Part shown: piece after piece, positions 7,794 to 51,824 of the stretch
Numbering within the stretch: position 1 is the first letter of the stretch
Layout: the number at the start of each line of letters is the position of its first letter
NCBI GenBank assembly: GCA_029262855.1
Contig: JAJCYP010000047.1
Coordinates: 1-53,873 of the forward strand
Source of the DNA: Bacteroidota bacterium
GTDB taxonomy: Bacteria; Bacteroidota; Rhodothermia; Rhodothermales; UBA10348
Length of the DNA stretch: 53,873 bases
Reading direction: 5' to 3'
Program-made: the position numbers and the translations under genes
Notes under the pieces: model-generated
The model's database searches: none
The model's input: the letters and a program-made list of their open reading frames with translations, nothing else
What the model was told of the DNA's origin: nothing

Positions 7794-9617
7794 CTACTGG
7801 CCCACCACGATCATTCTGGTTTCGCTGAAGGTCGTGCCCTGAAATCTTACCCAGTATCGGCCGGCGGGCCAATCGACCACATTCAGGTCCAGTCGCAGCT
7901 CCTCGCCGGGCCCGACCCAGTCGTCGTGGCTGAACGCCGTGCGTCGACCGACGGCGTCGAATACTTCGACCGCAACACGCTGGATCTCCGAGACCACCAG
8001 CGAGAGGTTTACGGACTCCGCGGCCGGATTGGGATAGGGATCCGAGACCACGTGGGTACCCGGGACGACAAAGACATCGTCCTCGACCAGGGTTCTGCGG
8101 CCACCAGACTCGGAAACTGCCACCAGCCTGACCTCGGATCGGCCGGCTGGCAGGTCTGATGTCGCGAGTTCAAAGTCCTGTTGCCCTCCGACCCCGGCCG
8201 GGACGCTGGCCACGAGCGCAAAGGTTTCGTCCGAAAGCCTGCGCTCCAGATCGTACCGAACGATGTCGAGCTGTCGAAGCATGGTCCATCGGAACTGAAC
8301 CGGGTCCGAATCGGAATCGATCGTAAGACTCCCAAGGCGACTCAACAACAGCCCCGCTGCCCTTAGGAGGAACAACCCTTCGCTCCGGCTTGAGACGGCG
8401 ATGGTGCCATCCGAGAAATAGGGGTAGACCGACCACGCTCCGCCAAACCCCGTGGCGTCATCATCGGGCGTGGTGTCAAAATGCGCCACCGGGGCCGGAA
8501 TGGTCGGGTCGATGATGTCCAGAATTCTCAGCCCTGAGGTGTAGTTGGCCTCGTACAACAGGCCATCTGCCACGTAGAGATTGTGGTCGATGGCGGGCGA
8601 ATCGTGGAAATACTCGCCCGCCAGCTGCGGATCGTCCAGGTCCAGGACATCCCATATCAAAGTGCGCGTCGGGGTTCCCGCAACGCGCTCATCGAGTTCG
8701 TCATTCTGGAAGAAGTAACGCTGATCGTCCGAGAGCCAGCCCTGATGCACATACCCGCTGGTCGGGTAGGTGGCCACTCCCAGGTCGACCGGTGCCGACT
8801 TGTCGGTCACGTCGGCGATTGAGACGGCGTTCTCGTTCGCCGCCAGGCAGATTTCCCGACCCCGATACGCCACGTCGGGACCCTCGTAGATGACACATTG
8901 GGCGTCATGCGTATACCCACGGCGGGTTCGCAGATCCCTGAAGCACCCGGCAAGGAGGGGCCGGCGCGGGTCGCGGACGTCAATCATGTGCAGTCCCTGA
9001 TTGCACTCTCCCTGCGACGAACCGACCGCGTAGGCGAAGCCGGTATCTTCATTCATCACCAGGTTGTGAGCCGACCCGAAGCCCTCATATCGCGTGAGTT
9101 CGGAGAATTCCACCGGCGGAGTGCCGGTGAGTCCCCTGAGTTCGCCAAGGTCAAAAACCTGCATGCCGTGCGGCCCCGCACCGTCGGCCACGACGAACGC
9201 GTGATCGGCGTACACCTTGATGTCTCGCCAGACGCTCGCTCGAGCTGCTTGGGTCATGGGCAAGCGGCCCACGAGGACCGGCGTCCCGGGCTCGGTCACA
9301 TCCACGAAGGCCGTTGCGTTTTCAAGACCCAGAAGGACATACCTACGTCCCGTCTGGGGGTCTTCCCATCCCCAGAGGTCGTTGGCCCGATACTGCCCGG
9401 CTTCAAGGTCCTCCAGACTCATGAAGGCAATAAGATCCAGGTTTTGACACGGATAGACGCCCGCGGACCCGTTCTGGCAGGTGACGGCGGCGGACTTGGC
9501 AACGCTACTCGACGGTGAATCGCCGCCCGTCACATCCAGCGCCTTAGCATCCTGGATTTGTCCACGTGCCGGTCCGGCCGCAAGGAGAAGGACAAGCAGG
9601 ATGGGTAGTCGATTCAC
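7794..9617 (-). CDS. Choice-of-anchor B family exported protein with type IX sorting domain (copy 1)
   Basis: The 607 aa start with a signal peptide (NRLPILLVLLLAAGPARG). The next 400 residues carry the choice-of-anchor B signature: LWGWEDPQTGRRYVLLGLENATAFVDVTEPGTPVLVGRLP, then WRDIKVYADHAFVVAD, GSAHNLVMNEDTGFAYAVG, THDAQCV, HQGWLSDDQRYFF and DHNLYV, interpreted as propeller blades. The last 80 residues (VSDPYPNPAAESVNLSL to the end) form a typical type IX secretion C-terminal sorting domain, so the protein is likely displayed at the cell surface. The GTG start at 9617 overlaps the stop of the paralogue upstream (GTGA), indicating coupling. The family has no established activity. Confidence 0.92.
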   Translation of the reverse strand: MNRLPILLVLLLAAGPARGQIQDAKALDVTGGDSPSSSVAKSAAVTCQNGSAGVYPCQNLDLIAFMSLEDLEAGQYRANDLWGWEDPQTGRRYVLLGLENATAFVDVTEPGTPVLVGRLPMTQAARASVWRDIKVYADHAFVVADGAGPHGMQVFDLGELRGLTGTPPVEFSELTRYEGFGSAHNLVMNEDTGFAYAVGSSQGECNQGLHMIDVRDPRRPLLAGCFRDLRTRRGYTHDAQCVIYEGPDVAYRGREICLAANENAVSIADVTDKSAPVDLGVATYPTSGYVHQGWLSDDQRYFFQNDELDERVAGTPTRTLIWDVLDLDDPQLAGEYFHDSPAIDHNLYVADGLLYEANYTSGLRILDIIDPTIPAPVAHFDTTPDDDATGFGGAWSVYPYFSDGTIAVSSRSEGLFLLRAAGLLLSRLGSLTIDSDSDPVQFRWTMLRQLDIVRYDLERRLSDETFALVASVPAGVGGQQDFELATSDLPAGRSEVRLVAVSESGGRRTLVEDDVFVVPGTHVVSDPYPNPAAESVNLSLVVSEIQRVAVEVFDAVGRRTAFSHDDWVGPGEELRLDLNVVDWPAGRYWVRFQGTTFSETRMIVVGQ

Positions 9618-11149
9618 TGCCGCGTTATGGGTCTCGTGATGACGACGCCGTCCAAGTCCAGGCGGACCATGTAGACGCCGGGAGTCAACCCGGATCCGTC
9701 GAATCGGATGGTTTCGGGGCCAGGCCGAACCACACCTTCTCTGAGGACGGAGAGCTCCCGCCCCAGCATGTCCAGAACGCTGACCCGCAGGCCACCCGCG
9801 ACCTCCATGTCCAGCTCAAGGGTCACCTGCCCGCTGAACGGGTTGGGCCAGGCAGTGGTCACGCGGAAGGTCCCCGGAATCTCGGCGGCCTGCTGCGTTC
9901 CCACCGAAAGCGATGGATGGGTGGCTTGCACCAGGAAGAGACCCTCGCCAATCGACGACAAGGCTATCGTACCGCTCTCGAAGTAGGGGTAGGTTGACCA
10001 GGTGCCTGCGAACTGCTCCCCATCGATGTTCGGAGTCGTGTCGAAGAAGGCAATCTCTGTCGGAGTCTCGGGCGAACTGATGTCGAGAATTCGGAGCCCC
10101 GCGGTGTAGTTGGCCTGATAGAGGAAATCGCCCCTCACGTACATGTTGTGATCGATGGAGCGAGTGACGGCCTGGTACTCTCCCAGATAGACGGGGTCAT
10201 CCAGATCCTCCACGTCGAAGATGAGTGATCGGGCCGGCTCGCCGGCCAGCTCATCGAGTTCATCGCCCAAGATGAACGTGCGCTGATCCTCGGTCAGCCA
10301 CCCCTGATGCGCGTAGGCTAGGCCCGGATACTCGGCCTTGGCGATCGTCTGCGGCTTTCCCTTCACGGTCACATCCACGATCGAAACGGCCGTCTCGTTC
10401 GCTCCCAGGCAGATTTCCCGGCCGGCATAATCTGGATCGGGGCCGTGATATTGCACACACTGCACATCGTGCGTGTAGCCCGTGCCCGCCCGGCCTGTCC
10501 CGTCGTGCGAAAAGCAGCCCACGAACCGCGGCGTATCGGGAATCTGGATGTTGATCATGTGCAGGCCCTGTCCGCAGCTTTGACCGCCGGATGCGCCGAC
10601 GACATAGGCAAAGCCGGTATCCTCATTGATGGCCACGTTGTGTGCGGAGCCGAACCCCTGGTAGTGCGCCGTCATCTGGAACTCCATTCCCTCGCCGGTT
10701 ACAGATCTCAGTTGCGTGAGATCGAAGACCTGAAGGCCGTGGTTGCCGGCCCCGTCTGCGACGACGTAGGCGTGGTTGGCGAAAACCTTGACGTCCCGCC
10801 AGTTACTGGCTGCCGCGCCCGAGTGCGGCAGGTATCCGACGACGCGCGGATTCTGCGGGTTTGATACATCGACGAAGGATGTTCTGTCGTCCATTCCAGC
10901 CAGGACATACTCGGCTCCCGTGTCGGGGTCGGTCCAACCCCACAGGTCCAGCGACTCTCGGGCACCCGGGCCCAGCGTACTGTTTGGTATGAAGGCCAGG
11001 AGATCCACGGCGCCGCAGGGATAGCCTTCGGCGAAGCCAGACAGACAGGCTGTGCGTTGCCCCGATGCGGACTCCTGTCCTTGGGTCGGCCCGACAAGAA
11101 TGAGCCCCAGGAGAAGCAGGGCCAGACTATCTTTGGCCCTGCGAACCAC
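9614..11149 (-). CDS. Choice-of-anchor B family exported protein with type IX sorting domain (copy 2)
   Basis: This is a paralogue of the next gene, with the same ordered blocks: LWGWTDPDTGAEYVLAGMDD, WRDVKVFANHAYVVADGAGN, GSAHNVAINEDTGFAYVVG, THDVQCVQY, HQGWLTEDQRTF and DHNMYV. It ends with a sorting domain (TTAWPNPFSGQVTLELDM to the end). Upstream frame remains open to 11488, but the signal peptide (KDSLALLLLGLILVGPTQG) begins just after a GTG at 11149, which gives 511 aa and a normal signal. Other GTGs at 11173 and 11230 are possible. The start region faces the SDR gene. Probably surface-exposed; activity unknown. Confidence 0.9.
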   Translation of the reverse strand: MVRRAKDSLALLLLGLILVGPTQGQESASGQRTACLSGFAEGYPCGAVDLLAFIPNSTLGPGARESLDLWGWTDPDTGAEYVLAGMDDRTSFVDVSNPQNPRVVGYLPHSGAAASNWRDVKVFANHAYVVADGAGNHGLQVFDLTQLRSVTGEGMEFQMTAHYQGFGSAHNVAINEDTGFAYVVGASGGQSCGQGLHMINIQIPDTPRFVGCFSHDGTGRAGTGYTHDVQCVQYHGPDPDYAGREICLGANETAVSIVDVTVKGKPQTIAKAEYPGLAYAHQGWLTEDQRTFILGDELDELAGEPARSLIFDVEDLDDPVYLGEYQAVTRSIDHNMYVRGDFLYQANYTAGLRILDISSPETPTEIAFFDTTPNIDGEQFAGTWSTYPYFESGTIALSSIGEGLFLVQATHPSLSVGTQQAAEIPGTFRVTTAWPNPFSGQVTLELDMEVAGGLRVSVLDMLGRELSVLREGVVRPGPETIRFDGSGLTPGVYMVRLDLDGVVITRPITRQ

Positions 11150-11195
11150 GGGACGAATTACCGCCCGAAACACAGGACGAACGACAGCGGAAAAC

Positions 11196-12008
11196 CTGAA
11201 GCGACTCAAGAGCAAAACAGTATATATCACAGGAGCCTCTGCCGGGCTCGGCAGGGCCTGTGCGGAGGGAGTCGGTGCGGCCGGTACGCGGCTGCTCCTC
11301 TGCGCTCGCCGGGCCGAAAGATTAGCCCCGGTCAAAGCGCATCTGAAAGATAGATACGATGTGGAGGTAAGGACGTTCTCTTTGGACGTAACGGACTCAT
11401 TGGCCGTCCGGCAGTCGCTGGACGGCCTGCCAACGGAGTGGCGGGACATCGACGTTCTGGTCAACAATGCCGGGAAAGCCCTCGGCAAGAGCCCTTTTCA
11501 CGAATCGGATCTGAGCGACATGGACGGCATGCTGGATGCCAATGTCCGTGGCCTCATCCACGTTTCCCGTGCGGTCATTCCCGGCATGGTCGCCCGCGGT
11601 GCGGGTCACGTGATCAACATCGGATCGGTGGCGGGCAAGTGGACCTACCCAGGTGGGACGGCCTACTGTGCCACCAAGGCTGCCGTGGCCGCCTTGACCG
11701 AGGGAATGAAAATGGACCTGCACGGGACCGGAGTTCGCGTGAGCACGGTGGACCCCGGGCTCGTGGAGACGGAGTTTTCGCTGGTCCGCTTTCACGGAGA
11801 TGCTCAGGCTGCCGAGAAGGTCTACCAGAACATTGAGCCGCTCACCGCCCATGATGTCGCGGACACGGTGCTGTTCTGTGCCAGCCGTCCCCCGCACGTG
11901 AACATCAATCAGGTGGTGATGATGTGCACGGATCAGTCATCCTCGACCATGGTGTATCGCCACCGTCAGCCGCCTCTTGGATCCATCCCCGCGACCCCCG
12001 ATATTTGA
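11196..12008 (+). CDS. Short-chain dehydrogenase/reductase, apparent CTG start
   Basis: A cytosolic SDR with the cofactor loop TGASAGLG, the NNAG motif, the catalytic SVAG serine and YCATK tyrosine-lysine, and length 270 aa. It resembles the NADP-dependent serine/3-hydroxy acid dehydrogenase (YdfG) group; the substrate is not predictable. The Rossmann fold normally begins a few residues after the start, which here points to CTG at 11196 (protein LKRLKSKTVYITGAS). In-frame ATGs at 11100 and 11052 would add an arginine-rich tail read across the neighbour's signal peptide codons and look unlikely. It is followed by the terminator at 12048. Confidence 0.9.
   Translation: MKRLKSKTVYITGASAGLGRACAEGVGAAGTRLLLCARRAERLAPVKAHLKDRYDVEVRTFSLDVTDSLAVRQSLDGLPTEWRDIDVLVNNAGKALGKSPFHESDLSDMDGMLDANVRGLIHVSRAVIPGMVARGAGHVINIGSVAGKWTYPGGTAYCATKAAVAALTEGMKMDLHGTGVRVSTVDPGLVETEFSLVRFHGDAQAAEKVYQNIEPLTAHDVADTVLFCASRPPHVNINQVVMMCTDQSSSTMVYRHRQPPLGSIPATPDI
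11219..11224 (-). promoter_or_regulatory. Possible -10 element for the choice-of-anchor operon
   Basis: The minus strand reads TATACT at 11224-11219, about 70 bases upstream of the GTG at 11149. No good -35 hexamer is seen at the right spacing. If it is used, the GTG at 11230 cannot be the start codon. The site overlaps the first codons of the divergent SDR gene. Confidence 0.3.
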
Positions 12009-39881: not shown

Positions 39882-40634
39882 GTGGACCGGGCTCTACGCG
39901 ATTCACTGGCTGCCGTGGAGGACCGTCATTGGTGGTTTGAGGGCAGGCGGGTAATCCTGCGCCGCCTTCTGGAGGCTCAGGGAGTCAGCGGGCCGGTGCT
40001 CGAGGTGGGCTGCGGAAACGGGGCGAATCTGGGGATGCTGGAAGCCTTCGGGCAGATCACGGCCGTCGAACCAGATGATGGCGATCGGGCCCGCGCAGCG
40101 GCTCGCGGGATCGGCGACGTTCTACCGGGCTCGCTCCCGGACGGGCTTGCGGTGGACGGACCATTCGGGATCGTGCTGGCGCTCGATGTGATCGAGCACG
40201 TCGAGGATGATCTTGCGTCGGTGATTGCGATGCGGGGCCTGCTTGGCCCCGGGGGACACCTTGTACTGACCGTACCCGCATATCCCTGGCTCTGGAGTAA
40301 CCACGACCGAGTCAACGGCCACTTCCGCAGGTATACCCGCCGAACCCTGTCGACCCTGCTGGCGCGAGCCGACATGCGGATTGAACGACTCAGCTACTTC
40401 AACTCGTTTCTTCTGGCGCCGATAGCAGCGGTCAGACTCCTGGGACGCCTCATCGGCCAGGACGGCGCCGGCACGGGACTCCCCCCCGGCTCGATCAATA
40501 TGGCTTTGCTGAAACTGCTGGGGTTCGAGGCCCGTCTATTGGGTCGATCCAACCTCCCAGTCGGCGTTTCTCTGGTGGCCATCGCCAGACGCGCGTCGAC
40601 ACCTCCCCAGGATGCCCCCGTCACGTCCCGATGA
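39882..40634 (+). CDS. Class I SAM-dependent methyltransferase
   Basis: The 250-aa protein begins with DRHWWFEGRRVILRRLL, typical of a large group of Bacteroidota and archaeal methyltransferases. Motif I is LEVGCGNGANLGML, the acidic residue follows at AVEPDDGD, and motif IV-like is GIVLALDVIEHVEDD. A C-terminal hydrophobic stretch follows (RLSYFNSFLLAPIAAVRLLG). The target is unknown. The GTG at 39882 follows pheA's stop with no gap. The end overlaps the sigma factor gene by 23 bases. Confidence 0.9.
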   Translation: MDRALRDSLAAVEDRHWWFEGRRVILRRLLEAQGVSGPVLEVGCGNGANLGMLEAFGQITAVEPDDGDRARAAARGIGDVLPGSLPDGLAVDGPFGIVLALDVIEHVEDDLASVIAMRGLLGPGGHLVLTVPAYPWLWSNHDRVNGHFRRYTRRTLSTLLARADMRIERLSYFNSFLLAPIAAVRLLGRLIGQDGAGTGLPPGSINMALLKLLGFEARLLGRSNLPVGVSLVAIARRASTPPQDAPVTSR

Positions 40635-41214
40635 CCAGGCGCTTGCCGAACTCCTGACCCGCGCCCGTGCGGGTGACCGGCAGGCCGAGTCTGCGCTCAT
40701 GGAGGGCCTCCAACCCACCGTGCGTGCCTACTTCTTCCGGCGCGTCGGCGACCACGCCGAACTGGATGACCTGATCCAGAATACCCTGGTTCGGGTGTTC
40801 CGAGGAATCCAAGAGATCAAGGATGTGGAGCGTGTCCGCGCCTTCACGTTGAAGGCCGCCCTCTTCGAGCTCCAAGACCTCTACCGCGGGCGGTACGGAA
40901 GCAGAGAGGTCACCGTGGCCGCAGAGCTGGCGGAGCCTGCAGTCCGGCCGATGCGCTCCGGCCTGAATCTGGACATCGAGCGTGCCCTCGGAGCACTGAC
41001 GCCGAAGGCGCGGCGAATCATTGAACTGAAGGCTCTCGGCTACCGCTACGAGGAAATCGCCGGCATGGTCGAGACCACCGAGGCGGCGGTGAAGATGCAG
41101 GTCAAGCGAGCGCTGGAAAAGCTCCGCTCCATACTCGGCGTCCTGGCCCTCCTTTTTCTGCCCGCAAAGTCCCTTCTGTTACTTTTGCGGCCTTTGATCC
41201 GGCTACTGTTTTGA
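40612..41214 (+). CDS. ECF sigma factor with a C-terminal hydrophobic tail
   Basis: The 200-aa protein has sigma region 2 (about 12-92, with AELDDLIQNTLVRVFRGI) and region 4 (about 122-174, with TPKARRIIELKALGYRYEEI and EAAVKMQVKRALEKLRS). ECF factors normally end here, but this one adds about 27 residues (174-200) dominated by leucine with a few lysines and arginines (GVLALLFLPAKSLLLLLRPL), able to form a membrane-associated helix. It is coupled to the methyltransferase gene and followed after 30 bases by the FecR gene, a typical anti-sigma partner. Tail function is inferred. Confidence 0.92.
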   Translation: MPPSRPDDQALAELLTRARAGDRQAESALMEGLQPTVRAYFFRRVGDHAELDDLIQNTLVRVFRGIQEIKDVERVRAFTLKAALFELQDLYRGRYGSREVTVAAELAEPAVRPMRSGLNLDIERALGALTPKARRIIELKALGYRYEEIAGMVETTEAAVKMQVKRALEKLRSILGVLALLFLPAKSLLLLLRPLIRLLF

Positions 41215-42316: not shown

Positions 42317-42336
42317 ATCCCCTATCTTCGGGGGAT
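42317..42336 (+). promoter_or_regulatory. Hairpin overlapping the start codon of the STN receptor
   Basis: ATCCCC (42317-42322) pairs with GGGGAT (42331-42336) around an 8-base loop. The second arm contains the G-rich ribosome site and the first two bases of the ATG at 42335. It could limit translation initiation of the receptor relative to FecR. Six pairs only, so this may be chance. Confidence 0.3.
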
Positions 42337-44983
42337 GGTTCGACAGGCTCGACGATCGTTTTTCTGCTCCCCGAGGCTCGGGGCCGCTTTCCTGGCCCTT
42401 CTGGTGATCGGGCTGGCGCCCTGTCTGGCGAACGCCCAGCGAATTGTGATTGAAGGAGACCGCCGACCTCTCGCTCAAGCGCTGTCGGACGTCGGGACCC
42501 AGGCAAACGTCGATGTCGTGTTCGCTCAGCGTCTTGTGGCTGACCTCTACACGAACTGCCGCTACCGGGGATCAGACGTAGCCTCTGCCTTTCGATGTCT
42601 CCTTGCCGGCACGAGGCTGGAGGCGCGGTCAACCGGCCCGGCGCAGTACGTCCTTGTTCGGGCCAGCGCACCCAAGAGGCGCCTCGGCATTTTTGGGACG
42701 GTGATGGACCGGGAAACCACACAGCCCCTGCCGGGGGCCAACGTCCTCGTGATCGATCGAGGCCTGGGTGCGGCTTCGAATCGGACCGGCTTCTTCGCCT
42801 TTCCGACGATGCCCGAAGGGCCCCATCGAATCCGAATCACGTTTCTCGGCTATGCCACGCTGGATACGTTCGTTGTGGCCGGCGATCGCGTTCACAGGTT
42901 CGAGCTGAAGCCACGAGCCCTCGAGTCGGCTGGACTCCTGGTCGAATCCACAGAAATCAGGCCGGGTGATCAGACGCCTCTTCCGGGAATGCTGACCCCT
43001 CCGATTGCCCGCCTGGAGCGACTTCCCGCCTCCCTCGGAGGTCAGGATCTACTGGAGGCCCTGACCTGGACTCCGGGAATCCGCCGAGCAGGAGAGGTTT
43101 CCGGCGGGCTGCTGATCCGTGGCGCCGGCCCCGACCAGAACCTCTACCTCCTGGACGGGGCTCCCGTCTATCATCCCTGGCACGCGTTCAGTCTTATCTC
43201 CACCTTCCAGACAGAAACGTTCCGGTCGGTACGCGTCTACCGCGGCGCGTATCCGGCTGAGTTTGGCGGTCGACTTTCGGCAGTCCTCGACGCCGAACTC
43301 ACCGACGGGAGTGGATTACAGCCCCGGGTACAGGCCGCGCTCAATACGCACAGCGCCAGGTTTCTCATCGAGGCGCCCTTGTCGTCGCGAGCCTCCTTCA
43401 TGTTTGGTGGACGGAGGTCATACATAGACCGGATTATTGGCAAGTCGCACCCCGTCTCCGATGACTCGGGTCGCCGCGACACCCTCCGAACCGGCTACTT
43501 CTTCTACGACTGGACAGCCAAGCTGGTCTTCCGTCCGGATGATCGCAGCCGCCTCTCCATCATGTCCTATCGCGGGCGGGACGATCTGGATCTGCGCCTC
43601 CCGTTCGACCTGTCGTTGGATCTCTCCTCCTGGCTGCGCCCCACGGACCTGCTGTTTGAGGTGCGCGAGTTCTGGCGAAACCGGGTGGTGAGCACGCGTT
43701 ACGAGCGGTTGCTGTCCGAGCGCTGGTATCTCACGGCCACGGCGCACGATTCGCGCTACCAGGCCGAGGAAAGTGCCTTCCTCCAACCGTCGTCGTCCAG
43801 CAGCGTCCAAAGCTCCTATAACGTTGACATCAGGGATACGGGTCTACGGATTGATCTGGACTACTTTCATTCGGCACGCAACCGCATGCGAATGGGAGTG
43901 CTGGCTGTCGGTCGGGATTTCGAGTCTGACGTCGATGCGGTGGTCAACTACAACCCGAGTCTGACCGAGCGGCTCAAGGAGGCGAGTAACTCCCGGGCCG
44001 TCGAACTGACCGCTTACGTCCAGAGTACGTGGCTGGCGACCGAGAGGCTTGAGGTTCGAAGTGGCCTTCGTGCCGCCGCCTTCGGATCCGACCGCCTGGC
44101 CAGGCTCGAACCACGACTGAGTGTGCAGTGGTCCGCTGACCCGCAGCTCCTGGTTATGCGGGCCTCGTTCACCCGTTCCTACCAGTACCTGCACCGAATC
44201 CGTGACCGGCACTCGGTGCTCTATGACCTGGTTTCCAGCCGATGGATTCCTGCCAGCAACAGCACACCTCCGGTTCGAGGAACCGAAATCGCGTTGGATG
44301 TCGAGTCCAGACCGCAGGATTGGACCCTGCGTGCCAGTACCTACTACCGGGAACAGGTGCACGTACTTCTTCCGCGCGACGCCTTTCAGTCAAAAAATGA
44401 ACTCGCAGGCCCTGGGATCGAAGTCGGTACCCTGCTCGGGCAGTACGAGTCGGGCACGGCAAGGGCCGGTGGGGTTGAGGCAGGCGGGACATACCAAAAG
44501 GGCGCGGTGCTGGCCACGCTCGGCCTTGCGATTGAGCGGTCTGTCACGTCTGGGCCCTCCGACGGGGACCGCTTTATCCCCGCCCGCTATGATGTGCCGG
44601 TGACGACCCGGGGATACATCGAGCGTCGTGGTCAGACGTGGAGCTACGGGCTGGGTCTTCTGGCTCGCTCCGGATATCCCATCACAGTTCCGGAGGCCCG
44701 GTACGCGGTTGCCGGGCCGGTGGACGATGAACCGACCACCTACCTGTTTCGCCCGACGGCACACAACGGCAGGTTGCCCCTCTATTGGAGACTGGATGTC
44801 AATGCGTCCCGCAGCTTTGTGCTGTTTGCGGCGCAGTGGCGCGCCCAACTGCAGTTGTATAACGCACTGGGCCACCGAAACGTGATCGATCGCTTCTTCG
44901 AGCCTGACGGGAATTCGGTGCACGTTACCCAGCGGCGCGGGCTGCCAATCCTGCCGTTGTTCGAGTTGAGGGTGGACCTATGA
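42335..44983 (+). CDS. STN-domain TonB-dependent receptor (signal transducing)
   Basis: The 882-aa receptor has a signal peptide (about 1-34, GAAFLALLVIGLAPCLANA), an N-terminal secretin/TonB short domain (about 36-108, RPLAQALSDVGTQANVDVVF) used to signal to FecR, and a carboxypeptidase-like domain (about 117-195). The plug follows (about 210-330, with LLIRGAGPDQNLYLLDGAPV and YRGAYPAEFGGRLSAVLDAE), then a barrel ending in PLFELRVDL. Together with the sigma factor, FecR and the DUF4249 lipoprotein it forms a cell-surface signalling and uptake unit. The ligand is unknown. Its stop overlaps the DUF4249 start. Confidence 0.94.
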   Translation: MVRQARRSFFCSPRLGAAFLALLVIGLAPCLANAQRIVIEGDRRPLAQALSDVGTQANVDVVFAQRLVADLYTNCRYRGSDVASAFRCLLAGTRLEARSTGPAQYVLVRASAPKRRLGIFGTVMDRETTQPLPGANVLVIDRGLGAASNRTGFFAFPTMPEGPHRIRITFLGYATLDTFVVAGDRVHRFELKPRALESAGLLVESTEIRPGDQTPLPGMLTPPIARLERLPASLGGQDLLEALTWTPGIRRAGEVSGGLLIRGAGPDQNLYLLDGAPVYHPWHAFSLISTFQTETFRSVRVYRGAYPAEFGGRLSAVLDAELTDGSGLQPRVQAALNTHSARFLIEAPLSSRASFMFGGRRSYIDRIIGKSHPVSDDSGRRDTLRTGYFFYDWTAKLVFRPDDRSRLSIMSYRGRDDLDLRLPFDLSLDLSSWLRPTDLLFEVREFWRNRVVSTRYERLLSERWYLTATAHDSRYQAEESAFLQPSSSSSVQSSYNVDIRDTGLRIDLDYFHSARNRMRMGVLAVGRDFESDVDAVVNYNPSLTERLKEASNSRAVELTAYVQSTWLATERLEVRSGLRAAAFGSDRLARLEPRLSVQWSADPQLLVMRASFTRSYQYLHRIRDRHSVLYDLVSSRWIPASNSTPPVRGTEIALDVESRPQDWTLRASTYYREQVHVLLPRDAFQSKNELAGPGIEVGTLLGQYESGTARAGGVEAGGTYQKGAVLATLGLAIERSVTSGPSDGDRFIPARYDVPVTTRGYIERRGQTWSYGLGLLARSGYPITVPEARYAVAGPVDDEPTTYLFRPTAHNGRLPLYWRLDVNASRSFVLFAAQWRAQLQLYNALGHRNVIDRFFEPDGNSVHVTQRRGLPILPLFELRVDL

Positions 44984-45840
44984 AACTCCTGCAAGGCGTT
45001 CTCCCCGGACTTCTCCTGATCATGTCGGCGGCCTGCGACTCCGCGCCGGTAGCGTCTGATGCGCTCGTGGTTCAGGCATTCTTTCAGCCCAACAGGCCTT
45101 TCCCCACCGTTACTCTGTCGCGCGCCGTTCCGCTTGGAGAGGATGGTATCGGACGGCCAGCTCGAGGAGCTGACATCCAGATCACGGTTGCTGGGTTAGA
45201 GGTGGAATACGCTGAATCTCCCGAAGCCGGCGTCTACACAGCCGTTTCCCCCGGCCTTGTTGCCCCCGGAGCAAGCTTTGAATTCGTGGCCAGGCACGCC
45301 GGTGATGTCGCGACGGCCAGGGGGATGGTCCCACCGCCCATGACTCTCGACAGCTTGAGGGTCTCGGCCCCGAGCCAGCCCATTCGGGCCGTACTGCTGG
45401 ACTCGCTCTCCCTTTCGCTCGACACTCTTTCACTCTCGAGCACGGGTTTCATTTATCCCGTGGACGTGACGCTCTGGTGGAAGACACCTCCGGAGACCGG
45501 GGGAGATTACTGGGTGGAAACCTCCGTCACGCCTCTGGTGTCGTTTTCCTCCCGACTGATAGATTTCTTCCTGCCGTCGTCTTCCGTCCTGCAGGAGCCG
45601 CCAAACGGCCCGGCCCCCCTGAGTTGGACGGGGATCTATGCCGTGCCGGTTGAGTCGGCCACTACGCCTCTCCCTCAGCACGTGCTCCGCGTGTCGGCCG
45701 TCCGGGGTGACCTGGACTACGCGCGCTTCGCCTTGTCCCGGACCGACCCGGATCGGCGCGAGCCCGTCAGCAACCTCACTGGAGGGATCGGAATCGTGGC
45801 CGGGATCGCTCTGGACTCGATCCGCGTCTACGTCGAGTGA
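44980..45840 (+). CDS. DUF4249 lipoprotein, receptor partner
   Basis: The 286-aa protein starts with a lipoprotein signal (LPGLLLIMSAAC, anchor Cys at 19). A beta-rich region follows (VVQAFFQPNRPFPTVTLSRA, ADIQITVAGLEVEYAE, YTAVSPGLVAPGASFEFVA) that matches DUF4249, a family regularly encoded after TonB-dependent receptors in Bacteroidota and thought to cap or assist them. The ATG overlaps the receptor's stop (ATGA). Its stop is overlapped by the recX GTG. Confidence 0.9.
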   Translation: MKLLQGVLPGLLLIMSAACDSAPVASDALVVQAFFQPNRPFPTVTLSRAVPLGEDGIGRPARGADIQITVAGLEVEYAESPEAGVYTAVSPGLVAPGASFEFVARHAGDVATARGMVPPPMTLDSLRVSAPSQPIRAVLLDSLSLSLDTLSLSSTGFIYPVDVTLWWKTPPETGGDYWVETSVTPLVSFSSRLIDFFLPSSSVLQEPPNGPAPLSWTGIYAVPVESATTPLPQHVLRVSAVRGDLDYARFALSRTDPDRREPVSNLTGGIGIVAGIALDSIRVYVE

Positions 45841-46520
45841 ATCGCCCCAAGCGCAATCGCCGTGATCCCGTTCCCGGGCCCGTCACCGCCACCTCCGTTC
45901 AGGCGCGCGACCCCAATCGCATGTCCGTGTTCGTTGACGGGGAGTTTTCCTTTGGTATGCCGCTGGATGCGGCCCTGGATTTGGGAATCCGTACGGGTGT
46001 CGAACTTGACGAGTCGTTACTCGCAAAGTGCCTGGCCGCCGAGGAGGCCTTCCGGGCAAGACAGAAGGCGCTCAACCTGCTGGCCCACCGGCCTCGAAGT
46101 GTTGGGGAGCTGACCCGCCGGCTGGGAATGTCCGGGTTCTCCAAGGAGGCGATCTCATTTGCCATGGGCCGCATGGAGGCGCTGGGATACCTGAATGACG
46201 AGGCGTTCGCGGAGAGCTTCGTGCGCGACCGGATGATCGTGCGAGGACTCGGCCGGAGACGGATTCTCGTTGAGTTGGCCAGGAATGGCGTCAGTCGGGA
46301 ATTGGCCGAACGCGTCGTCGCCCGCATCTCGCCATCGCGTGATGAGGTGGAAGACGCGTACAATCTGGCCGTCAAGAAGCATCGGACGCTGGGCCGCGTC
46401 TCGGATCCCCGGAAAAAGCGCGACCGTCTGTACAGTCATCTGGTTCGGAAGGGTTTTGAGACGGACATTATCCGCGACGCCTTGGCCCGCTTGCAGGCTG
46501 AGGTGGGGACCGAAGACTGA
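45837..46520 (+). CDS. recX: RecX family regulatory protein
   Basis: The 227-aa protein has the tandem three-helix repeats of RecX: AFRARQKALNLLAHRPRSVG, then ELTRRLGMSGFSKEAI, LGYLNDEAFAESFVRDRM and LGRRRILVELARNGVSRELA, ending with KKRDRLYSHLVRKGFETDII. RecX inhibits RecA filament growth. The N-terminal 40 residues (SVFVDGEFSFGMPLDAALDL) are the usual strand-rich lead-in. The GTG start overlaps the DUF4249 stop, so recX is linked to the surface-signalling transcript, which is unusual; recA is not nearby. Confidence 0.93.
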   Translation: MNRPKRNRRDPVPGPVTATSVQARDPNRMSVFVDGEFSFGMPLDAALDLGIRTGVELDESLLAKCLAAEEAFRARQKALNLLAHRPRSVGELTRRLGMSGFSKEAISFAMGRMEALGYLNDEAFAESFVRDRMIVRGLGRRRILVELARNGVSRELAERVVARISPSRDEVEDAYNLAVKKHRTLGRVSDPRKKRDRLYSHLVRKGFETDIIRDALARLQAEVGTED

Positions 46521-46557
46521 CACGCGCCGTAGGATGCGGTGGACTGACCAAGCCAGC

Positions 46558-47640
46558 ATGCTCCAGGAGACCCGATACCAGCCCATACAGCCAGGGAAGT
46601 TCACCGCGGACAAGATTATTCGCGCCGTGGTGTACCTGCTGTTGGCTACGGGCGTGCTCCTGCTCTTCTGGTATTTCGCGCGACTCGTTGCCTACGTCAT
46701 CGTCGGGATGGCCTTCGCCTACGTCATGCGGCCGTTCAAGGACTGGATGGAGAGCTTTGGCATCTCCCACCTGACCGCCCTTCTGCTCACGTTCGTGGGA
46801 TTTCTGGGCCTGATCGGCGTGCTGCTGACCTACCTCGTCCCGTTCGCCGCCGGACAGATCAGCGAGGTTTCACGACAACTCTCGCCCGATGGAGTGGCCC
46901 GGACCGTAGCGGCGCGAATCGCCCTCTGGCTGCCTATCGACGCAGAGGCCGTGCGGCAGGGTATGTTCGGCGCCCTGGAAACCCTGATGCAGGAAGACCG
47001 CATCACCGCCATGGCCGGATCCGTGATTGATCTGTTCACGAACATCTTCTACGCGGTGCTGGTCATCCCCTTTGTGTCGTTCTTCTTTCTGAAGGATGGC
47101 CCGAAGATTCGGACGAGCATGCTCCAGGTTATTCCGAATCGGTTCTTTGAGATCTCACTGGGGATTGTCGACAAGGTGGAAATGAGCATCGGGCGGTACT
47201 TTCGAGCCCTGCTGCTGCAGAGCCTTTCCATCGCGACGATTGCCACTATTCTGCTTTCTGTCGCGGGACTGGACTACGCGTTGGCTGTCGGCATCTTTGC
47301 GGGACTGGCGAACACCATACCCTACTTCGGTCCTGTGATCGGACTCCTGGCCGGTGCTGTTGTCGGCATCTCGCAGACCGGAGACTTCTCGCTCTTCCCA
47401 GGAGTGCTCGTGGCCATGGCGGTGACACAGGTCAGCGACAACCTGCTGCTGCAGCCGCTGATTTTCTCGCGCGCGGCGCGCGCGCACCCGCTGATGATTC
47501 TCTTCGTGGTTCTCATCGGGGCCCAGTTGGCCGGCATCATTGGCATGCTGGTCGCCATCCCGCTCGCCACCACCTTGAGCGTCGTGATTCGCGAGGTGCT
47601 CTGGAGCATGCGCACGTTCCGCAGCCTGCGCGCGGCATGA
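46558..47640 (+). CDS. AI-2E family permease
   Basis: The 360-aa protein has about eight membrane segments and the family blocks YVIVGMAFAYVMRPF, FVSFFFLKDGPKI, IGRYFRALLLQSLSIATI, GLANTIPYFGPVIGLLAGAV and DNLLLQPLIFSRAARAHPLM. Members export varied small solutes (TqsA, YdiK, PerM types); no substrate can be named. Start at 46558 or 46534 both leave about 25-30 residues before the first helix; longer frames overlap recX. The stop overlaps the next gene's ATG (ATGA). Confidence 0.92.
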   Translation: MLQETRYQPIQPGKFTADKIIRAVVYLLLATGVLLLFWYFARLVAYVIVGMAFAYVMRPFKDWMESFGISHLTALLLTFVGFLGLIGVLLTYLVPFAAGQISEVSRQLSPDGVARTVAARIALWLPIDAEAVRQGMFGALETLMQEDRITAMAGSVIDLFTNIFYAVLVIPFVSFFFLKDGPKIRTSMLQVIPNRFFEISLGIVDKVEMSIGRYFRALLLQSLSIATIATILLSVAGLDYALAVGIFAGLANTIPYFGPVIGLLAGAVVGISQTGDFSLFPGVLVAMAVTQVSDNLLLQPLIFSRAARAHPLMILFVVLIGAQLAGIIGMLVAIPLATTLSVVIREVLWSMRTFRSLRAA

Positions 47641-49535
47641 GAGAAGCCGTCGCTGCTGTCAGGGCTGTAACGGACCGCGTCCCCCGTTTGGCGCTTGTTC
47701 TGGGCTCCGGGCTGGGCGAATTGGCCGAGGCCGTGGAGGATCCGGTCATCATACCAGCCGCCGATATTCCCGGTTACCCGGCGGCCACTGTTCAGGGCCA
47801 TCAGGGACGACTCGTTTTCGGAACCCTCGAGGGATGCGAGGTCCTGTTCGTTCAGGGCAGGGCGCATATGTACGAGGGGCACAGCCTCGAACGGGTAACC
47901 TTTCCGATTCGCCTGACGGCGGCGCTGGGCGCCCGGCAGGTACTGCTCACGAACGCCGCCGGCGGGATCAACCGGGACTTCCCACCGGGCACGCTCATGT
48001 GGATCAATGGGCACATTGACTGGATCGGGCCGAGGCCTGATTTGAAGCCGCCCCCCCGCATCGAGCGGAGTGACTACGATAAAGCCTGGCTGCTGGAAGC
48101 GGGAGGTCTGGCTGAAGCCGACGGAATTGAGGTTCGGCAGGGGGTCTACCTCTGGACCATGGGTCCCAGCTACGAAACGAAGGCGGAGATTCGCGCCTTT
48201 CGGGCGCTGGGTGCTGACGCTGTCGGCATGAGCACGGTCCCGGAGGCCCGGGCCGCCGCCAAGGCGGGCATGCGTGTGCTGGGACTGTCCACCATCACCA
48301 ATCCGGCGGCTGGCCTCAACAGCGAGCCGCTCGGTCACGACGAGGTAGTCGAGACCGGCCGGATGGTCAGGAGCACCCTGATACGTCTGATTGGGCTTGT
48401 GGCGAGGGGCGTTTCCGACCACCGGATGATTGATTCCAGGCCTGATGTTCAGGACATGGTGAGACTGGTCCGACCCGAGGTGCGGGCCGCGCGAGAATAC
48501 GTGGTCGGGAGCTTCCCGGACATTCAGGTCAAGCTGAACCAGAACGAGAGTCCGCTGGATTTTCCTGAGGCGCTCAAGGCCGAGCTGCTGGCAACCCTTC
48601 AGAGCACGGACCTGAACCGGTATCCGGACGAGATCCCCCATCGATTGCGGAATGTGCTGGCGGATCGGCTGGACCATCCCGCCGAGGGAATCATCGTCGG
48701 GAATGGCTCAAACGAACTGACCTATACGCTGGGAATGTGCTTTGTGGCGCCGGGGACTCCCGTAGTGGTGCCACGGCCCATGTTCGCCCTGTACGAGTCC
48801 ATGATCCGCCTCCACGGAGGCTCGGTGGTCCCGGTGGCACCCCGCGCCGATCTGTCGTTCGACGTGGACGGGCTGATTGCTGCCATGGAACGGACCCAGG
48901 CGCCGCTCACCATCGTGACGACGCCGAACAACCCCACCGGCCTTGCACTTGCACGGGAGGAACTGGAGGGGCTGATCGAAAAGGCACCGGGCATCATCGT
49001 GGTGGACGAGGCCTACGTGGAGTTCAATCCCGAGGGGTCGGTCCTGGATCTGATGGAGCAGTTCCCGAACCTGATCATACTTCGGACGCTGTCGAAGGCG
49101 TTTGGACTGGCGGGGTTGAGATTGGGGTATATGGTGGGGCATCCCGTCTTGGTCAAGGAACTCATGAAGTCCCGCCTGCCCTTCATGGTGGACCGGATTG
49201 CGGAGGCCGCCGCACTTTCGATTCTGGAGCGCGAAGACCTTGTGTCTGAACGCGTGCGCCAGATGCAGGCGTGGACAGCGGAACTCGGCGTGGACCTGGA
49301 GCAGATGGCCGAGATTGACGTGGTCTCGGGTCGAAGCAATTTCGTACTCTTCCGGACGCCGGTGCCCCCCCCGGTCATGCTGAACAGGCTGGCCGAATCG
49401 GGTGTGCTGGTTCGCAACATGGGAGGCTATCCCGAGCTCGCTGGGTACCTTCGCGTCACTTCCGGAACCCCGGCAGAGAACAGGCTATTCCTGGACGCGT
49501 TAAAACGGGCTCTGAACGAGCCCAATGCAGGTTAA
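47637..49535 (+). CDS. Fused frame: purine nucleoside phosphorylase + histidinol-phosphate aminotransferase
   Basis: One 632-codon frame. Residues 1-257 are a trimeric-type PNP (LVLGSGLGELAEAV, GRAHMYEGHS, TNAAGGIN, GPSYETKAEI, GMSTVPEA, TITNPAAG). Residues about 265-632 are HisC (KLNQNESPLDFP, YPDEIP, GNGSNELTY, TPNNPTGL, VDEAYVEF and the PLP lysine in TLSKAFGLAGLRLGY). Both halves look complete. An ATG at 48426 (MIDSRPDVQD) would be a natural HisC start and lies in ATGA. If one G of the run 48406-48409 were absent, PNP would end at that TGA, giving a normal four-base overlap. So this may be two genes joined by a one-base change or error, or a true fusion. Confidence 0.88.
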   Translation: MREAVAAVRAVTDRVPRLALVLGSGLGELAEAVEDPVIIPAADIPGYPAATVQGHQGRLVFGTLEGCEVLFVQGRAHMYEGHSLERVTFPIRLTAALGARQVLLTNAAGGINRDFPPGTLMWINGHIDWIGPRPDLKPPPRIERSDYDKAWLLEAGGLAEADGIEVRQGVYLWTMGPSYETKAEIRAFRALGADAVGMSTVPEARAAAKAGMRVLGLSTITNPAAGLNSEPLGHDEVVETGRMVRSTLIRLIGLVARGVSDHRMIDSRPDVQDMVRLVRPEVRAAREYVVGSFPDIQVKLNQNESPLDFPEALKAELLATLQSTDLNRYPDEIPHRLRNVLADRLDHPAEGIIVGNGSNELTYTLGMCFVAPGTPVVVPRPMFALYESMIRLHGGSVVPVAPRADLSFDVDGLIAAMERTQAPLTIVTTPNNPTGLALAREELEGLIEKAPGIIVVDEAYVEFNPEGSVLDLMEQFPNLIILRTLSKAFGLAGLRLGYMVGHPVLVKELMKSRLPFMVDRIAEAAALSILEREDLVSERVRQMQAWTAELGVDLEQMAEIDVVSGRSNFVLFRTPVPPPVMLNRLAESGVLVRNMGGYPELAGYLRVTSGTPAENRLFLDALKRALNEPNAG

Positions 49536-49560: not shown

Positions 49561-50169
49561 ATGGATTTCATACAGGTAGATATCATTGGCCTCTCCACGA
49601 GTCCCTCGAGCGGTGGGGCCTACGCCCTGGTCCTGGGCGAGGTAGACGGGAATCGCCGCCTTCCTATCATCATTGGAGCATTCGAGGCACAGGCCATCGC
49701 GCTGGAATTGGAGAAGATCCAGCCGCCGCGACCCATGACTCATGACCTGCTGCGCGATCTTTTCGACGCTGTGCAGGGTGACGTGATCGACATCGTGATC
49801 GACGAATTGCGGGAAGGCACGTTCTTCGCCAAGATCCGGTACACGGTTTCGGGCGAAGAGGGTCAATTGGATTGTCGGCCCAGCGACGCTGTGGCACTCG
49901 CTGTCCGTGTGGACGCGCCTATTTTTGTGGCGCCGATGGTCTTGGATGAGGCCGGAATCCCCACTGACGACGAGGACATGGAAGGCGCTCCGGCCCCTAC
50001 TTCGACGCCGCAGGTCGCCGAGGCCGCGGAGGAGGAAAAGCCGGGAGCACCGCGTTCCCGCGTCGACGAAATCAACGCCGAACTGGAGAAGGCCATCGCC
50101 GACGAGGACTACGAGAAAGCCGCCAGACTCAGGGATGAGATCAACCGGATGTCCGGGGGCAGCAACTGA
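49561..50169 (+). CDS. Bifunctional nuclease family protein with UVR motif
   Basis: The 202-aa protein has a DUF151/BFN domain (about 1-128, VDIIGLSTSPSSGGAYALVL, LPIIIGAFEAQAIALELE, RPMTHDLLRD, CRPSDAVALAVR). An acidic proline/alanine linker (about 132-160) and a C-terminal UVR motif follow (about 165-198, RVDEINAELEKAIADEDYEK then AARLRDEI). This arrangement is common in Bacteroidota. BFN proteins have been reported to degrade RNA and DNA; the UVR motif suggests protein contacts as in UvrB/UvrC. The last base of the stop overlaps the probable CTG start of bshC. Confidence 0.94.
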   Translation: MDFIQVDIIGLSTSPSSGGAYALVLGEVDGNRRLPIIIGAFEAQAIALELEKIQPPRPMTHDLLRDLFDAVQGDVIDIVIDELREGTFFAKIRYTVSGEEGQLDCRPSDAVALAVRVDAPIFVAPMVLDEAGIPTDDEDMEGAPAPTSTPQVAEAAEEEKPGAPRSRVDEINAELEKAIADEDYEKAARLRDEINRMSGGSN

Positions 50170-51824
50170 CTCAGGAAGCCATTCAGACCGCCTCGGACAG
50201 CAAGCCCAAGGCCTCCAGCGCCATCGCGCAGATATCGTACGGTCAGATGGCTGGATTCTCCCGGCTGTTCGTTGACTATGTAGAGGATTCAGGCACGGCC
50301 GGCGAGTACTACGCCCGCCGTTTTGACAAGGCTGACCTCTTGGCCTTCGCCAAGGAGACCGCCAAGGCATCCCGGGCCGATCGGGCACTGATCAAGGACA
50401 TTCTGGTGGATCAGCAGGCCCTCTGGGGCAATGACCGGGCAGCGGCCGAGAACGCGAAGCGGTTGAGCGATCCCTCGGCGACCGTGATTGTCACGGGACA
50501 GCAGGTCGGGCTCTTTGGCGGCCCGCTGTATACGGTGCTCAAGGCTTTGACCACCGTACTCCTGGCGCGGGAACTGGAGGCCGCATCTGGCGCTCCCGTT
50601 ATTCCCGTCTTCTGGCTGGGCTCGGAGGACCACGACTTCGACGAGATGGCGTCGGCATCCGTACCGGGCGCCACCTTCACGGTCCCCCACCCGGGCGCCT
50701 CGAACACCGGCCCGGTGGGCGCTCTGGAATTCGGGCCCGAGATTGCCGATCTGGTGGACCAGCTGCAGGAGTCGCTTCCCCCGACCGACTTCCGCGATGA
50801 GGTCCTGAGTACGGTGCGCTCCTGCTACAAGCCGGGAGCCACGTTCCGGGATGCCTTCGCCGGCTTGCTGCGAAGTCTCCTGCCGGAGACGGGCCTGGTG
50901 CTCTTCGCCCAGGATGACCCGCGTGTCAAGCGGCTCGCGGCTCCACTCTGGCAGCGCGAGATCGAGGATTTTGCCTCGTCCGACGCTGCGCTGAGATCGG
51001 CCACCGATCGCATCGCCAGGGAATATCACGCTCAGGTCCATATCCGGCCGTCCAACCTGTTCCTGATTCATGAGGGCCAGCGACTCCCGCTGGACACCGA
51101 GGACGACCGATTCAATCTCAGGGGTACAGAGCACTCCTGGAGCCGGGAAGAACTCTCGGCGCTCCTCGAGAGCAACCCGGAGAAATTCAGCCCGAATGTG
51201 GTGCTCCGGCCGCTGACCCAGGACTGGCTTTTTCCGACCGTCGCCTATGTGGGTGGCCCGGGCGAGACGGCTTACTTCGCGCAGTACAAGGGCGCCTATG
51301 CCTGGGCCGATCTCCCGATGCCCGCCATCTATCCCAGGATCAGCGCCACGCTGATCGAGCCAGGGATTCGCCGCAGCCTGAACAAGATCGGAGCACCACC
51401 CGAAGCGTTTGGCGAGGACCCCGACGCCCTGTTCTCGAAGCTGGCCAAGGCCCGCATGGAATTCGACGTTGAGGCCAGATTCGGCAGGACCATCGGTGAA
51501 ATCAACAAGCTTATCTCGCCGCTGATACCCGAAGTGGTGGCTATCGATGCCTCGCTGAAGAAGTCCGTCGAGGCCACGCGGGCAGCCCTCCAGAACGAAA
51601 TAGTCCGCCTCCGGGACCGTGTCCTAAAGGCCGATCGAAGAAACCGGGATCTCCTCCGCCAGCAGATTGAGAAAGTGGCCGATGGGCTCTTCCCCGGTGG
51701 AAAGCCTCAGGAGCGTGTCATCTCTCCGCTGTACTTCACCACGAAGTACGGGACCGATTTCTTCCTCCGTTTGATACACGACCTGGATGCCGACACCCGC
51801 TCCCATCTTTTGATTGACCTGTAG
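50166..51824 (+). CDS. bshC: BshC, putative cysteine ligase of bacillithiol synthesis, apparent CTG start
   Basis: The family signature [20 protein letters not shown], the [17 protein letters not shown] block and the [18 protein letters not shown] block identify BshC, which adds cysteine to GlcN-malate. The first ATG (50247) would start at [11 protein letters not shown], but the usual N-terminal strand ([10 protein letters not shown]) lies just before it. The frame is open to 50139 with no ATG, GTG or TTG. A CTG at 50166, preceded by GGGGG, overlaps the preceding stop as CTGA, matching the ATGA/GTGA/TTGA junctions nearby. From CTG the protein is 552 aa; from ATG, 525. Confidence 0.92.

Follow-up and report, generated by a model that had tools for sequence, protein, structure and literature searches.

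A purine nucleoside phosphorylase and a histidinol-phosphate aminotransferase in one open reading frame of a Rhodothermales genome

Within the 53,873-nucleotide stretch of DNA analysed here (the window), a Rhodothermales genome carries a purine nucleoside phosphorylase (PNP) and a histidinol-phosphate aminotransferase (HisC) in one open reading frame. As read from the window, this frame spans positions 47637–49535 on the forward strand, from ATG to TAA, and comprises 632 codons without interruption. Comparison with relatives leads us to regard it as fairly probable that the fused frame is real DNA, which would have arisen through the loss of a DUF3276-type gene, followed by the in-frame loss of the remaining spacer and of the PNP stop codon. 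The main rival to a real fusion is a nearby indel. The preference for real DNA is approximate and reflects our judgement rather than a computed value.

Composition of the fused frame

The first-pass annotation had described PNP and HisC as one 632-residue protein, a reading that was confirmed here, both halves being full-length by family models. The calculated mass of the fused chain is 68.6 kDa, correcting the 67 kDa proposed at that stage. Residues 2–253 matched the PNP model NF006054 with 286.3 bits (cut-off 218), covering positions 9–268 of the 274-position profile, and the same half also scored above the cut-off of TIGR01697; narrower models, such as TIGR01700, gave matches below cut-off only. 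The Pfam domain PNP_UDP_1 (PF01048) was assigned to residues 17–252 with 158.6 bits (cut-off 25.1). By these curated models, the first half is a nearly full-length member of the PNP family. It resembles PNPs of the PNPH-PUNA-XAPA group (NF006054/TIGR01697) in exceeding the cut-offs of both models, but differs from them in that its frame does not close at about residue 261–262 and continues into HisC. The best solved chain by sequence for the PNP part is 8swu_A.

The second half is a full-length HisC as classified by the equivalog model TIGR01141, whose curated cut-off of 276.55 bits it exceeds with 294 bits (residues 279–624; profile positions 1–348 of 349). Pfam Aminotran_1_2 covers residues 296–622, and the best solved HisC chains by sequence are 3cq5_A and 3cq4_A. 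Although it shares this model with other HisC proteins, it differs in that PNP precedes it in frame.

We placed the end of the PNP part at the last genus-conserved residues, ARGV, which assigns residues 1–259 to it (47637–48413, forward strand). Four codons on the same strand (48414–48425) encode the join S-D-H-R at residues 260–263. The HisC part follows as residues 264–632 (48426–49532, forward strand), starting at an ATG whose homologue in the congener G001 is the likely HisC start codon. In an AlphaFold model of the fused chain, which bears on the folded parts and not on oligomers, two folded parts were predicted (mean pLDDT 80.3; pTM 0.57). The last PNP helix spans residues 234–256 and HisC opens with a short helix at 271–275; confidence drops below 50 at residues 259–267, a segment that includes the SDHR join. 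The predicted picture is consistent with two domains connected by a flexible join, which speaks for a real fusion.

The source genome (G000) has a size of 4.74 Mb in 146 contigs, with a completeness of 98.95% and a contamination of 4.29%, and the window is its contig C47. This genome yielded no other match in the PNP range, and the HisC part retrieved only four weak aminotransferase matches (27–33%), which likewise counts in favour of a real fusion. Judged by model score, another histidine-pathway gene is present besides HisC, namely hisD (495.6 bits; cut-off 243.8). Upstream of the fused frame lies a gene for an AI-2E family transporter (46525–47640, forward strand; match start given, with a candidate start codon), whose stop overlaps the PNP start by ATGA. 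Two conserved neighbours follow downstream on the same strand, a bifunctional-nuclease-domain (BFN)/UVR protein (49561–50169) and BshC (50247–51824).

The PNP–HisC junction in relatives

The genus was represented by three genomes, the source genome and its congeners G001 and G002, and the family by 27, in which the entry for the source genome is the fusion itself. Junctions were read automatically in 21 relatives and by hand in G001, giving 22. Automatic reading returned no junction for G001 and G003–G006; the latter four were judged by the positions of their separate matches, with PNP and HisC about 2 kb apart. All 22 relatives with a junction read have an ordinary PNP stop. A DUF3276-type gene (the family name was taken from the G002 protein) lies between PNP and HisC in 19 of them, and the two genes are directly adjacent only in G001, G018 and G019. 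Across the 27 family genomes, a DUF3276-type match was present in 22 and was not found in G000, G001, G004, G018 and G019. In two genera, the members that lack such a match (G000/G001 and G018/G019) have PNP and HisC adjacent.

The two congeners illustrate both arrangements. In G002, PNP ends in ARGVASV and TAA and is followed by the DUF3276 gene and then by HisC. In G001, PNP ends in ARGVGG and TGA, and HisC follows after 141 nt in the same frame, that TGA being the sole in-frame stop between them. The G001 PNP was pieced together from two contigs with 27 identical bases at their ends, and its PNP–HisC junction lies on one contig (L035). A comparable layout was seen in G018 (L010, 2302–2344), where PNP and HisC share one frame, interrupted by one TGA and a short spacer; in G019 the genes are adjacent in different frames. 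Because HisC of G001 is already in the same frame as PNP, a fusion would require no frameshift. This same-frame spacer arrangement in G001, together with the lack of a DUF3276 match in both G000 and G001, argues for an origin of the fusion by gene loss.

Protein identities to the window favour G001 as the closer congener for three of four neighbouring proteins, with 92% against 82% in G002 for the BFN-domain protein, 76% against 69% for BshC and, only slightly, 70% against 69% for HisC. PNP runs in the opposite direction, with 79% identity to G002 (over residues 1–260) and 76% to G001, so it is not certain that the DUF3276 loss was shared with G001.

These comparisons suggest a sequence of events whose order we infer. 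The DUF3276 gene would have been lost in an ancestor that the source genome probably has in common with G001, leaving PNP and HisC adjacent, and in the lineage of the source genome the spacer still left between them would have disappeared in frame together with the PNP stop. Ribosomes would then read from PNP through the SDHR join into HisC's own N-terminus and on through HisC, producing a single polypeptide of about 69 kDa that carries both enzymes and would presumably be stable and keep both activities.

A technical or natural frameshift as a possible source of the join

The strongest rival explanation is a technical artefact, which we hold to be possible but clearly less probable than a real fusion. 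It proposes that the true DNA contains two genes, their junction being ATGA or one nearby, and that the assembly has a single base too many or too few. The first-pass annotation had pointed to a candidate for such a change in a run of four G's at 48406–48409 (forward strand), where removal of one G ends PNP in ARAFPTTG with a TGA at 48427–48429 that overlaps an ATG at 48426. We reproduced this arithmetic; a surplus G as the specific cause was rejected on two grounds. The loss of any single base across 48395 to 48426, that is, at 32 of the 35 positions tested, produces the identical TGA stop, and the G run is thus not singled out. In addition, the ARGV codons, which read GCG AGG GGC GTT in the window, GCG CGC GGC GTG in G001 and GCG CGG GGG GTG in G002, align in both congeners. 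The G run thus falls within conserved Arg-Gly codons, and the frame with four G's is the conserved frame, which contradicts a surplus G. The conservation of the PNP frame through ARGV with all four G's speaks for an origin by gene loss. Among the options raised initially, a natural fusion stands as probable, while a single extra G falls with the conserved codons of the congeners.

If an artefact is responsible, the most plausible site of the base change is on the 3' side of the ARGV codons and not the G run itself. The loss of one base at 48412–48426 yields a PNP of 263 residues with ARGV intact, whereas one base gained at any of the 35 positions makes PNP 265 residues long. Both alternative frames thus stop PNP near its native length, for which 261–262 residues can be deduced from the C-terminal ends in G001 and G002. 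That a single loss at 48412–48426 gives a near-native PNP and a common type of junction favours the artefact and weighs against gene loss.

The frequency of this junction type was assessed across the window. Of the 31 close co-directional gene pairs examined, 7 allow an NTGA overlap, the start codons at these overlaps being candidates and the PNP–HisC pair being one of the 31; this, too, would fit an artefact. Just upstream of PNP, possible overlaps occur at 44980, 45837 and 47637. In the gene stretch that leads into PNP (42335–47640), the junction before the transporter has no NTGA overlap. An ATGA overlap between PNP and HisC was looked for in the relatives and occurs in none of the 22 junctions read, a weak argument as adjacency of the two genes is limited to G001, G018 and G019. 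The ATGA at the HisC start can be accounted for otherwise: HisC of the window begins with MIDSRPDVQD and that of G001 with MIESKPGVQD, where we infer the start as ATGATC. ATGA would thus be the first four bases of a Met-Ile start and need not be the remnant of a lost stop, which counts against the artefact.

The quality of the assembly was evaluated by comparison with G002, with which the window is colinear from about 1.1 kb all the way to the end; a chimeric contig join is therefore not supported. Two related ORFs stand in tandem at 7797–11374 (reverse strand), and G002 has a tandem pair too, with cross matches of 51–53%. In a frame audit of 46 genes and 48,640 bases, PNP and HisC included, no gene was clearly broken, so that an assembly indel is unlikely. 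One stop was counted, at column 291 of 303, where the gene ends naturally. The 46 genes were hand-picked, in that antisense shadows and two doubtful ORFs were dropped and genes hidden by an overlap filter were restored; a stretch near 40621–41166, matched in part only, lies outside the list. The same list underlies the count of close gene pairs given above. By the rule of three, the audit sets an upper bound of about 6e-5 errors per base, which amounts to about 0.002 over the 32 positions concerned. This figure is rough because 5 of 48 ORF matches cover less than 90% of the G002 ORF; we attribute these shorter matches to the choice of start codon or to the end of the window.

That a recent natural change of one base in the sequenced population fused two overlapping genes, possibly polymorphic and without benefit, appears improbable. 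A natural indel would leave the same picture as an artefact, so that the same sequence evidence speaks for it; the G001 junction, however, has no overlap, and HisC is already in frame there, so that no frameshift is needed. Deliberate production of both forms by slippage at the G run is very improbable: its sole point in favour is that a one-base slip anywhere near ends PNP at the HisC start, whereas the run consists of just four G's accounted for by conserved Arg-Gly codons, and the 22 relatives with a junction read have an ordinary PNP stop.

Distribution and significance of the fusion

Relatives sharing the fused frame, which would have favoured a true fusion, were sought at four taxonomic levels and did not emerge. 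No fused frame was found in the 26 other genomes of the family. Besides the source genome itself, none was detected in the order (114 genomes; E ≤ 1e-100; at most 11 candidates scored per genome), the class (244 genomes; E ≤ 1e-110; at most 5 candidates) or the phylum (395 genomes drawn; E ≤ 1e-135; at most 3 candidates). The order, class and phylum sets overlap and include the source genome, and a strongly diverged fusion could miss these E-value cut-offs. Within these E-value and candidate limits, no further genome shares the fusion. Plasmid records gave matches in 682 cases, all of them covering less than 80% of the query; the five that were listed concern the HisC part only. The frame is probably a real fusion of neighbouring genes that is confined to this genome. 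That no second genome has the fused frame in these searches weighs against an origin by gene loss, and its occurrence in one assembly only, among the genomes searched, would equally suit an artefact.

The functional pairing is a further point against an origin by gene loss. The roles of PNP and HisC are unrelated and their usual oligomers differ, PNP being a trimer and HisC a dimer.

In the literature searched, no PNP–HisC fusion was found, as judged by title and the start of the abstract. The accessible part of a 2021 survey of histidine genes in the superphylum, covering 91 strains, names hisIE and hisNB as fusions and describes no HisC fusion (PMC8305728). The same part reports that HisC proteins of Rhodothermota and of most Chlorobi carry some seven additional residues at the N-terminus (PMC8305728). 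As far as that text goes, hisIE and hisNB resemble the present case as fusions of a histidine-pathway enzyme in the same superphylum, but they join two functions of the histidine pathway (PMC8305728), whereas PNP–HisC joins enzymes of unrelated pathways and was seen in one genome.

Our preferred reading, real DNA that arose by loss of the DUF3276 gene, presumes that the fused frame has read support. A further step, that a stable and functional bifunctional PNP–HisC has become fixed in this Rhodothermales species after the DUF3276 loss, supplying salvage and histidine enzymes in a 1:1 ratio, is conceivable yet doubtful. If the fusion is real, gene loss in a conserved neighbourhood alone can weld unrelated neighbouring enzymes together with no pathway reason. 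It would also call for caution, as the inference of functional links from gene fusions would here wrongly tie purine salvage to histidine synthesis.
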